Positions 3,969 through 53,845 of a stretch of 64,000 nucleotides of DNA are shown here, in pieces. Each line of letters starts with the position of its first letter. Positions within the stretch are counted from its first letter, which is position 1. Origin of the DNA: Alphaproteobacteria bacterium. GTDB taxonomy: Bacteria; Pseudomonadota; Alphaproteobacteria; Acetobacterales; Acetobacteraceae. A program made the translations under genes and the position numbers. The stretch is taken from contig JADZEB010000035.1 in the NCBI GenBank assembly GCA_020850755.1, forward strand, positions 1-64,000. Direction: 5' to 3'. The notes beneath the pieces are model-generated. The model was not told where the DNA came from. It saw only the letters and a program-made list of their open reading frames with translations, and made no database searches.

Positions 3969-4043
3969 GGGCGATTAGCTCAGCGGTAGAGCATCCCGTT
4001 TACACCGGGAGGGTCGGCGGTTCGAATCCGTCATCGCCCACCA
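3969..4043 (+). tRNA. tRNA-Val, anticodon TAC
   Basis: Complete cloverleaf: acceptor GGGCGAT/ATCGCCC, D-arm GCTC/GAGC, anticodon stem TCCCG/CGGGA with loop TTTACAC (anticodon TAC), T-arm GGCGG-TTCGAAT-CCGTC, discriminator A and an encoded CCA. It decodes GTA and related valine codons. Confidence 0.97.
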
Positions 4044-4134
4044 AGCCTTGCCCATGCGGTGCGTGGGGCGCGGGCGGCTGGCACGCCCCGGCGCGGCCAT
4101 TCGCAAAAGATCACGCTTTTCGCTCCGGCCGTGC

Positions 4135-4163
4135 TTGACACGGGGGCGCGCGCTGCCCTAAAC
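4135..4163 (+). promoter_or_regulatory. Probable promoter of tRNA-Asp
   Basis: A consensus TTGACA (4135-4140), a 17-bp GC-rich spacer and CTAAAC (4158-4163) sit 24 bp before the tRNA-Asp gene, placing initiation near 4170. The spacer contains a GC-rich block, as in stringently controlled stable-RNA promoters; that reading is inference. Confidence 0.6.
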
Positions 4164-4187
4164 CCGCGTCCTCCCAAGCTTGGGCCT

Positions 4188-4264
<77 letters not shown>

Positions 4265-49989: not shown

Positions 49990-52269
49990 GTGGCAGCAGG
50001 CGGGGCAGGCGGGACCACGGCGCAGGCGGCCGATGCGGCCGTGCTGGACGCCGTCCGCCCCGCGCACTGGGGCAGCGTTCCGGCAAGGCCGAGGCCGACG
50101 CCGTCGGCGCGCCTGCGCGCCGCGATCGGGGCCGCCTTCGCCGCCGAGCGCGAGCGCTGGCCGCTCTGGCTGCCGGTGGCGCTCGGGCTCGGTATCGGCA
50201 TCTACTTCCTGCTGCCGCGCGAGCCCTGGCTCTGGTCCGGTCCGGTCCTGGCCGCCCTGCTGCTGGCGGTGACGCTCAGGCTGCGACTGCGCGGCAGCAT
50301 CCGGGGGGCCTGGACCGCCGGTCTGATCGCTGCGGTGGCGCTCGGTTTCGCCGTGGCGCAACTGCGCACGGATTCCATGCCGGCTCCGCTCGATCCGCCG
50401 CGCCGCGCCGCGGTGCTGGAAGGGGTGGTGCAGCAGGTGGACCGGCTGCCCAATGGCCGGCGCGTGGTGCTGGCGCAGGTGCGGCTGGTCGAGGCGGGCG
50501 GCGCCCCGGTGGCAGCCGAGGCGGCAGGGCCCTGGGCGCGCGCCGTGCGGGTGCGGCTGCGCAACGACGACCGCGCCGCCAACCCCGCCCCCGGCGACCG
50601 CGTGCGCATCCGCGCACTGATCCGCCCGCCGATGCCGCCCGCCCTGCCCGGCAGCTTCGATTTCCAGCGTGCGGCCTTCTTCCAGGGGCTCGGCGCCTCG
50701 GGCTTCGCGCTCGGGCCGCTCAGCGTCATCGCCTCCGGCGCGCCGCCCGGCTCCTTCGCCCATGCGCTCGCCTCCGCCCGCCACAGCATCGTCGAGCGCG
50801 TGCAGGATGCCCTGCCCGCGCGCGAGGCCGGCATCGCCGCGGCACTGCTGACGAATGTCGTCACCTCGATCCCGCCGGCCGACATGCAGGCGATGCGCGA
50901 TGCGGGGCTGGCGCATCTTCTGGCCGTGTCGGGGCTGAACATCGGCATCGTCTGCGGCTTCTTCTTGCTCGGCCTGCGGCTGCTCCTGGCCGCGATCGAG
51001 CCGGTAGCACTGCGCTATCCGATCAAGAAATGGGCGGCGGTGGGGGCGCTGCTTGGCACCTATGCCTACATGCTGCTGGCGGGCGCCAACGTGCCGGTGC
51101 AGCGCGCCTTCCTGATGGCAGCGATCGTGCTGGTGGGGGTCCTGTTCGATCGCGCGGCAAGCCCGATAAGGCTGCTGGCCTGGGCGGCGGCGGCGATCCT
51201 GCTGGTCCAGCCCGAGGCTCTGCTGGGCGCAAGCTTCCAGATGTCCTTCGCCGCGGTGGCGGCGCTGGTGGCGGCATGGGAGGGGTTGCGCCGGCTGCTC
51301 GCGGCCCGGGCCGAGCATGGTGCGCGGCACCGGTTGCTGCTCAAGGCGGCCGGGCTGATCGCGACCAGCTTCGTCGCCAGTGCGGCCACCATGCCCTTCG
51401 CGATCTACCATTTCGACCGGCTGGCGGCCTATTCGGTGCTGGCCAACGCCATCGCCGTGCCTCTGACCAGCGTCTGGGTGATGCCCTGGGGCGTGATCGC
51501 GCTGGTGCTGATGCCCTTCGGGCTGGACGCGCTCGCCTTCGTGCCGATGGGCTGGGGCATCTCGGCGATCCTCGCCACCGCGCATCTGGTGGCGGCGCTG
51601 CCGGGCGCGGCTTGGACTATGCCGGCGATGCCGCCCTGGGGGCTGGCCCTGTGCGCGCTGGGCGGGCTCTGGCTCTGCCTCTGGCAGCGGCGCTGGCGCC
51701 TGTTGGGTGCGCCAGTTCTGGTTCTCGGGCTCGCTAGCGCGGCCCTGGTGCGCCCGCCAGACATACTGGTGTCCGACGATGCGCGGCTGATCGGCGTGCG
51801 GCACGGCTCGGAACTGGTGCTGCTGGCAGAACGCGGCGCGAACCGCCTGGTGCGCGAGGTGTGGCTGCGCCGGATGGGGATCACGCGCACGGTGCCGCTG
51901 CCCGACGAGTGGGAAGGCTGGAACGCCGGCCCGGTGCGCTGCGACGAGGATGCCTGCACCGTGGCTGGGCCGGGCGAGCGGGCGGCGGCGGTGATCCTGC
52001 CCGAAGGCGGCGAGGTCGCGGAGCAATGCGGCCGGGCGCCCCTGCTGCTCAGCCCCGAGCCCTTGCGCGGACGCTGTGCCGGAAGCCGGGTGATCGACCG
52101 CTTCGCGGTCTGGCGCCAGGGCGGACAGGCGGTGTGGTTCGGCGCGGAGGGGGCGCCGCGCGTGGTGAGCGACCGTGCCTATCGCGGGCGGCGGCCCTGG
52201 GTGCCGCCGGAGCGGCCGTCCTTCGCCGAGGATCAGTTCGCGCCCAGACCTGCCGCAGGGGCGAGATAG
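49990..52269 (+). CDS. comEC: ComEC/Rec2 family competence protein, 759 aa
   Basis: Inner-membrane channel for single-stranded DNA during natural transformation. An N-terminal DUF4131 region with two to three helices is followed by an OB-like soluble part (residues ~120-230). The competence domain with HLLAVSGLNIGIVCGFFLL and further helices comes next, then a C-terminal domain that lacks a full HxHxDH metallo-beta-lactamase motif, as in many Proteobacteria. It starts with GTG at 49990. Divergent from gltX and normally beside lexA in this class; here a split low-GC gene lies between. Confidence 0.9.
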   Translation: MAAGGAGGTTAQAADAAVLDAVRPAHWGSVPARPRPTPSARLRAAIGAAFAAERERWPLWLPVALGLGIGIYFLLPREPWLWSGPVLAALLLAVTLRLRLRGSIRGAWTAGLIAAVALGFAVAQLRTDSMPAPLDPPRRAAVLEGVVQQVDRLPNGRRVVLAQVRLVEAGGAPVAAEAAGPWARAVRVRLRNDDRAANPAPGDRVRIRALIRPPMPPALPGSFDFQRAAFFQGLGASGFALGPLSVIASGAPPGSFAHALASARHSIVERVQDALPAREAGIAAALLTNVVTSIPPADMQAMRDAGLAHLLAVSGLNIGIVCGFFLLGLRLLLAAIEPVALRYPIKKWAAVGALLGTYAYMLLAGANVPVQRAFLMAAIVLVGVLFDRAASPIRLLAWAAAAILLVQPEALLGASFQMSFAAVAALVAAWEGLRRLLAARAEHGARHRLLLKAAGLIATSFVASAATMPFAIYHFDRLAAYSVLANAIAVPLTSVWVMPWGVIALVLMPFGLDALAFVPMGWGISAILATAHLVAALPGAAWTMPAMPPWGLALCALGGLWLCLWQRRWRLLGAPVLVLGLASAALVRPPDILVSDDARLIGVRHGSELVLLAERGANRLVREVWLRRMGITRTVPLPDEWEGWNAGPVRCDEDACTVAGPGERAAAVILPEGGEVAEQCGRAPLLLSPEPLRGRCAGSRVIDRFAVWRQGGQAVWFGAEGAPRVVSDRAYRGRRPWVPPERPSFAEDQFAPRPAAGAR

Positions 52270-52364
52270 GGCGGCGGTCGTGCCTGTGCCGCAGGGGCGG
52301 TGCAGGACGGGGAGCGGCGCCAGTGGCCTGTGATACCCGGCGTTGGACCTTCAGCCCGGGTGCG

Positions 52365-52897
52365 CTATGGCATCCTCCGCCGCAACCAGTTGCGGAAGCG
52401 GTTCAACAGTAGGGATAACCGTGGCGGCGGCTTATTGTTCGCCCAAGATGGTGGCTTGGTCGGCCACTCGGAGTGATAATGTTTGCCGGCAGCGTCAATG
52501 ACAGTTGCCCGCAGCCGCCACCAAAGCGCTCCGTACTTTGCCATCTCCGCTTGATCTGTGGAAATTACATATGGAGCGGCCCCCTCAGCAAGGGTTACGC
52601 CTCGGACAGTATCGAATAGCAGGCGATGACGGGTGCCAACATCTTCACCAGCGGGAATCTTGAAATGAACATGGCTTACATAAATTGGCCGGCGGCCTAT
52701 ATTACTTATAGTAACAACAAAAAAGTCTTCGAATGGTTTGCGGCTGTACCAAATCCTTTCATGTCCCATTGTAAACGCACAGTTACTTTTGCGCGGTCCC
52801 GAAAGTAGACCAGTGTGCCGATCATTAGGCCAAGTGGGCCAGTGATGGCGCCAACAAGAGCTGCCCAGTCTTTGATATCCATGATTTTCGTGTTCAC
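52365..52897 (-). pseudogene. Split hypothetical gene with -1 frame change
   Basis: Family not named by me. The first frame (GTG at 52897 to TAA at 52706) encodes a membrane helix (WAALVGAITGPLGLMIGTLVYF) then RDRAKVTVRLQWDM. A second frame, -1 relative to it, continues with VVTISNIGRRPIYVSHVHF, a beta-rich domain and a basic tail, ending at 52365. The two pieces look like one protein of about 175 residues. In the overlap the minus strand reads T_TTT_TTG (52724-52718), a -1 slippery heptamer in the correct phase, with the zero-frame stop four codons later. Either a one-base loss, a sequence error, or programmed frameshifting. Lower GC than its neighbours suggests transfer. Confidence 0.6.
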
Positions 52898-52992
52898 TCG
52901 ACAAGCGTGCGGCGGCGTGGTGGTGACTCGGTCCTGCGCTCACTGTGCGTGGATGGCACCCGACTGTCTCGACGGGTCCCCGGGGCGCGCGG

Positions 52993-53727
52993 CTAGTATT
53001 TCCGCACCAGCCCGACCAGCTTGCCCTGTATCCGCACCCGGTCGGGGCCGAAGATCCGTGTCTCGTAGCGGGCATTGGCGGGTTCGAGCGCGACCGAGTT
53101 GCCGCGCCGGCGCAACCGCTTGAGCGTGACCTCCTCCTCGTCGATCAGGGCGACGACGATCTGGCCGCTCTCGGCATTGTCGCCGCGCCGGATCACGACC
53201 GTATCGCCATCGAGGATGCCGGCCTCGACCATCGAATCGCCGGCCACCTCCAGCGCATAGTGCTCGCCCTGGCCGAGCATGGCGGCCGGCACCTCGGTCG
53301 TGGTGCCATTGTCGCGCAGCGCCTCGATCGGGCTGCCGGCGGCGATGCGGCCGTAAAGCGGCAGGTGCACGGCGGCCGCGGTTTCCGCGACCATGGCGGC
53401 GCCCGCCAGTTGCGGCTGGAAGTTGCCGCGGATGACGTTCGGGGTGAAGCCCGGCGCGGGGGCAGTCGGCGGGGCGGCCACGGTTTCGCGCGGGGTGCTG
53501 CGCGGGGCCAGCGCGTCCGGCAGGCGCAGCACCTCGAGCGCCCGGGCGCGATGGGCGCGGCGGCGGATGAACTGCCGCTCCTCCAGCGCCGTGATCAGGC
53601 GGTGGATGCCCGACTTGGACTTGAGCTTCAGCGCCTCCTTCATCTCCTCGAACGAGGGGGAGAAGCCGGTCTGGCGCAGATGGCGGTCGATGAAGATCAG
53701 CAATTCGTGCTGCTTGCGCGTGAGCAT
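52993..53727 (-). CDS. lexA: LexA repressor, 244 aa
   Basis: SOS repressor that self-cleaves when RecA is activated. Winged-helix DNA-binding domain at residues 1-65 ([17 protein letters not shown]). A longer linker than in E. coli follows. Cleavage site Ala130-Gly131 (IAAGSP), catalytic Ser165 (GDSM) and Lys203 (VTLKR). ATG at 53727 begins the conserved N terminus; the upstream open frame covers the operator and is not coding. Two LexA boxes precede it. Confidence 0.97.
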
Positions 53728-53791
53728 GCGGGCCCCCGATGGCCGTTGCCTGGGTGCGCGGGCGTGCCGAGGCGCCAGATAGCGGCGATCG

Positions 53792-53845
53792 GAACAAACC
53801 AGCAACCAACTGTGGTGTTCTATGTTGGTTCCGGTGCGCCGTCAA
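53792..53845 (-). promoter_or_regulatory. lexA promoter with two LexA boxes
   Basis: On the minus strand: TTGACG (53845-53840), 17 bp, TAGAAC (53822-53817). A perfect GTTC-N7-GTTC box (plus-strand 53817-53831) covers the end of the spacer and the -10. A second, imperfect box, GTTG-N7-GTTC (53806-53792), lies just past the predicted start. This is the alphaproteobacterial SOS operator type and implies autorepression. Confidence 0.85.

Follow-up and report, generated by a model that had tools for sequence, protein, structure and literature searches.

A slippery-type heptamer in a split small-membrane-protein gene between lexA and comEC: probably a recent indel in an acquired gene

When a gene is divided between two overlapping reading frames and a slippery heptamer lies in the overlap, is the full protein made by recoding, or was the frame broken by mutation or by a sequencing error? 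The question is raised by an AT-rich gene on the minus strand at positions 52882-52365 of the window (the whole 64,000-nucleotide stretch of DNA that was analysed). The zero frame translates from ATG 52882 as MDIKDWAALVGAITGPLGLMIGTLVYFRDRAKVTVRLQWDMKGFGTAANHSKTFLLLL and then ends at TAA 52708-52706. This N-terminal part (52706-52882, minus strand) comprises a short N-terminus, a predicted membrane helix, the stretch YFRDRAKVTVRLQWDMKGFG... and an LLLL end. From 52718 the -1 frame translates as VVTISNIGRRPIYVSHVHF... and is open for 117 codons, up to a stop at 52365; this C-terminal part (52365-52718, minus strand) runs from VVTISNIGRRPIYVSH... to RRRMP and is predicted to form a beta-strand domain. 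Direct reading of the minus-strand letters around the site, ...GAAGAC TTTTTTG TTG TTA CTA TAA..., confirmed what an earlier note on this DNA had described: the heptamer T_TTT_TTG (52724-52718) is in zero-frame phase, its first T being at codon position 3, the zero-frame TAA is the fourth codon after TTG, and a -1 slip at the heptamer enters the second frame. The extent proposed in that note, 52365-52897, holds for the gene but probably not for its start, as the start of a Polaromonas homologue aligns at ATG 52882, which is thus likelier than GTG 52897.

This homologue came from a second genome scan based on an N-x-GRRP motif, for which search alignments A2-A6 contained short invented GRRP-motif variants, solely to provide a degenerate pattern; all matches were then confirmed with the window sequence. 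The protein, encoded in a Polaromonas MAG (L024, 3001-3456), has 151 residues in one unbroken frame and is 41% identical to the window protein across the joined frames (E 1e-31 among candidate stretches). It is the sole closely alignable homologue, and none closer than 41% identity was found. Three more distant relatives (L025, L005 and L009) have the same layout, each in a single frame, and further weak matches (L003, L004, L006 and L007) are short and low-scoring, some of them with stops. Aligned with the Polaromonas protein, the N- and C-terminal parts reached BLOSUM62 scores of 102 and 171, respectively, far above the 40 and 47 at which 200 shuffles of each part peaked. Identities at codon positions one, two and three were 0.55, 0.67 and 0.33 in the N-terminal part and 0.54, 0.62 and 0.22 in the C-terminal part, which in both cases is the pattern expected of protein-coding sequence. 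The proposal that the two overlapping frames form one protein is well borne out by these scores and by the four of four homologues found in one frame; since all of them encode the protein without interruption, the sequences indicate one ancestral protein, interrupted once. Two separate, translationally coupled proteins, as the brief overlap of the frames might suggest, are very improbable: both parts are fused in the single-frame homologues, and the -1 frame lacks any ATG, GTG or TTG from the overlap as far as 52544, which makes a restart or coupling of translation at the overlap unlikely.

The encoded protein is most likely of an uncharacterized small membrane-anchored type, in which a single predicted membrane helix at the N-terminus precedes a beta-strand domain that carries an N-x-G-R-R-P motif. 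A structural model of a homologue, built from a four-sequence alignment (mean pLDDT 70), has a helix at residues 3-28 and then beta strands. Judging from the RDRA stretch and the positive-inside rule, the domain would lie in the cytoplasm. The resemblance to the Polaromonas protein extends over the whole length of the alignment and, as with the three other relatives, includes the N-terminal helix, the charged stretch (RDRA in L024) and the beta strands around V(T)xxNxGRRP; the window copy differs from L024 in being in two frames and in having approximately 20 extra C-terminal residues. Searches of Pfam, NCBIfam, PHROGs and PADLOC yielded nothing significant, the best Pfam match being DUF4352 (E 0.25, 12.1 bits versus a cut-off of 25.9), and no solved structure matched by sequence. 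Archaeal pilins and ApaG were considered as fold relatives of the homologue's model and set aside, as the matches were weak (E at best 1e-3, TM approximately 0.3-0.4). Because of the weakness of these fold matches, no function was inferred.

The gene lies in a 723-bp intergenic stretch (52270-52992) between the convergent genes comEC (49990-52269, plus strand) and lexA (52993-53805, minus strand), names that stem from our own reading of the sequences and are backed by the conserved gene order and sequence similarity of relatives. Its GC content is 52.5% over 52365-52882, versus ~70-77% in both flanks. The relatives searched lack the gene, and in several of them (L012, L018, L019 and L020) lexA and comEC lie end to end or nearly so. 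A search of 298 other genomes of the family with the C-terminal part gave no significant relative: apart from the window's own genome there were only two matches, with E values of 0.003 and 0.008 and 32-33% identity over 50-60 residues. Searches of plasmids, phages and viral contigs gave nothing with the C-terminal part alone, which also drew a blank in the first genome-contig scan, or with the joined-frame queries; the Polaromonas query gave a marginal plasmid match (E 0.7). The Polaromonas copy has a GC content of 57%. The absence of family relatives, the adjacency of lexA and comEC in several relatives and the low GC content argue for the recent acquisition of a dispensable gene, and horizontal transfer, previously suggested from the AT-richer composition, gains support from them. 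These sequence data would fit a sporadic horizontal acquisition, with the junction of the two convergent genes acting as a permissive site.

Another genome of the same family harbours a different single gene in the lexA-comEC gap (L013, 739-1473), methyltransferase-like by eye and with an AT-rich flank. The convergent junction itself seems to tolerate insertions. Repeats found near the locus were rejected as insertion boundaries. The 3' end of comEC contains two 24-nt direct repeats, 79% alike and 36 nt apart (TGCCGCAGGGGCG..., 52251-52310). Elsewhere in the window, genes for tRNA-Val (tac) and tRNA-Asp (gtc) lie close together at 3969-4264.

Where the frame changes can be delimited by homology. 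A frame-aware scan, in which every possible join of the two frames was scored against the four homologues, gave with L024 a best set of 14 joins no more than 4 points apart and spanning 52748 to 52718. The other relatives favour different joins in roughly the same interval, so that equally good joins reach upstream of the heptamer and the probable interval of the break is 52712-52752 (minus strand), a resolution of approximately 40 nt. In the L024 alignment the placement is firm for the N-terminal side as far as WDMK-FG and for the C-terminal side from VVTISN onwards. The heptamer (52718-52724, minus strand) is within the break interval and compatible with a break there, though the scan does not single it out; it is a candidate place for an indel rather than a demonstrated frameshift site.

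Ribosomal frameshifting on U_UUU_UUG, programmed or adventitious, would yield some full-length protein beside a short form. The layout invites this reading, with the heptamer in phase and a zero-frame stop four codons downstream, as in the bacterial genes with programmed -1 frameshifts (dnaX and IS3-family transposases), which likewise have a phased X_XXZ_ZZN heptamer and a zero-frame stop soon after. Such a motif is expected in the overlap by chance in approximately 5-8% of cases: in simulated sequences of the same composition with a 14-codon overlap, a phased X_XXY_YYZ (Y being A or T) occurred in 5%, and one or another of the 64 X_XXZ_ZZN motifs in 8%. The heptamer by itself is thus weak evidence of recoding. 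Nor is its phase independent evidence, because the loss of a base from a longer T run, such as one encoding a Phe-Phe stretch, automatically leaves a six-T heptamer in exactly that phase.

In contrast to dnaX and the IS3-family transposases, the window gene has neither a detected downstream structure nor a Shine-Dalgarno-like stimulator. Folded without pseudoknots, the downstream RNA is no more stable than shuffles (z values of -0.42, -0.46, +0.28 and +0.23), and inspection of the sequence 8-15 nt upstream of the heptamer showed no Shine-Dalgarno-like motif. Rfam searches gave no convincing element at the site. None of the four homologues has a frame transition or the heptamer, and the Polaromonas sequence reads AAGTTCTGGGGTGTCGTA at that place; the closest of them is 41% identical, so a recently evolved site would be compatible with this. 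The motif also differs from those of the known genes in its expected efficiency. A survey in E. coli (PMC4066793) found the efficient representatives of this motif class to be H_HH.U_UU.Y; it lists U_UU.U_UU.G as efficient for eukaryotes only, and it rates heterogeneous codons, UUG among them, as poorer at shifting than UUU or UUC. On the other side, most heptamers in that survey shifted a few-fold above background even without a stimulator. Frameshifting of either kind is unlikely in our estimation, and the suggestion of programmed -1 frameshifting was not upheld, given the single-frame homologues, the lack of a stimulator and the lack of a conserved slippery site. It is also quite unlikely that the gene is functional with U_UUU_UUG and no strong stimulator, in which case a short membrane peptide would be accompanied by a small amount of the full membrane-anchored domain. 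Slippage during transcription of the T run, by which some mRNA copies would regain the frame, can hardly be credited: the run is at the right place, but the bacterial runs on which high-efficiency slippage was demonstrated consisted of nine A or T residues (PMC5009743), versus six here.

Ordinary gene decay through a recent indel in the horizontally acquired gene is the leading explanation, and we consider it probable. Counting against it are the presence of a phased slippery-type heptamer and the fact that just one homologue is closely alignable. The break appears to be young, because both parts keep a coding pattern of identity and the -1 part is free of stops over its 117 codons. The same coding-type conservation on both sides, with a lone frame break in an otherwise well-conserved frame, would also be found if the organism had an undamaged gene and the assembly a single miscalled base, such as one in the T run. 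Six T, however, is a short run for homopolymer miscalls.

To gauge how frequent such errors are, a frame-aware HMM of coding sequence, with the window as its training set, was applied to 384 kb in total: the window itself plus 320 kb taken from 20 further contigs of this genome. Of one-base deletions planted as a test it recovered 38 of 40 before an overlapping-gene filter and 44 of 60 after it, and it replaced an earlier frame-break HMM that had recovered none of 24. No true frame break was found among ~308 other genes in the 384 kb: eight calls were left after the filter, and on inspection all eight proved to be ordinary cases of genes that adjoin or overlap. The model, which is tuned to GC-rich genes of host type, did not call the AT-rich insert coding, so it is uninformative on other foreign genes. 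With no break in these ~308 genes the indel rate is low, and frequent sequencing indels are unlikely, which leaves room for a lone error. An observation of a different kind is a 20-kb contig stretch of the same genome (L039, G000:C13:1-20000), with a GC content of 63% and 46% host-like coding in the first HMM run (the one that missed all 24 planted deletions), which is possibly a genomic island.

In their treatment of frame-disrupted genes, Antonov et al. (2013, PMC3711429) assign single, non-orphan, homology-validated frame breaks to indel mutations or sequencing errors, and where they discuss such singletons they favour errors. The window gene resembles these singleton fs-genes in its single occurrence, the homology on either side of one break, the lack of a conserved recoding motif and its nature as a dispensable acquired gene; it differs from them in also having a phased slippery-type heptamer, explicable by chance or by an indel in a T run. 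The Polaromonas gene provides what a recent pseudogene calls for, a homologue in a single frame across the break. Weighing these points, we regard a sequencing or assembly error as a minority possibility, though one to be taken seriously, and we infer that a genuine mutation produced the indel and that the gene is non-functional.

The history that we propose for the locus would begin with the horizontal acquisition of a small-protein gene and its insertion between the convergent lexA and comEC genes. A one-base change with a net -1 effect on the frame (the loss of 1 nt or an equivalent event) would then have occurred somewhere between 52752 and 52712, the T run at 52724-52719 being one possible site. 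Ribosomes would then be expected to stop at TAA 52708-52706 and to release only a 58-residue N-terminal fragment, with the membrane helix and a short tail but without the beta-strand domain. Loss of function is the simplest expectation for such a truncated product, and the gene would thus have been inactivated.

The finding is minor in itself and adds members to an unnamed family of small membrane proteins. If programmed frameshifting were shown here, the gene would be an unusual case beyond the known mobile-element and dnaX genes. The more general lesson is that recoding is only weakly indicated when a frame break is accompanied by a slippery heptamer in the 'correct phase', since the loss of one base from a T run produces just this phase.
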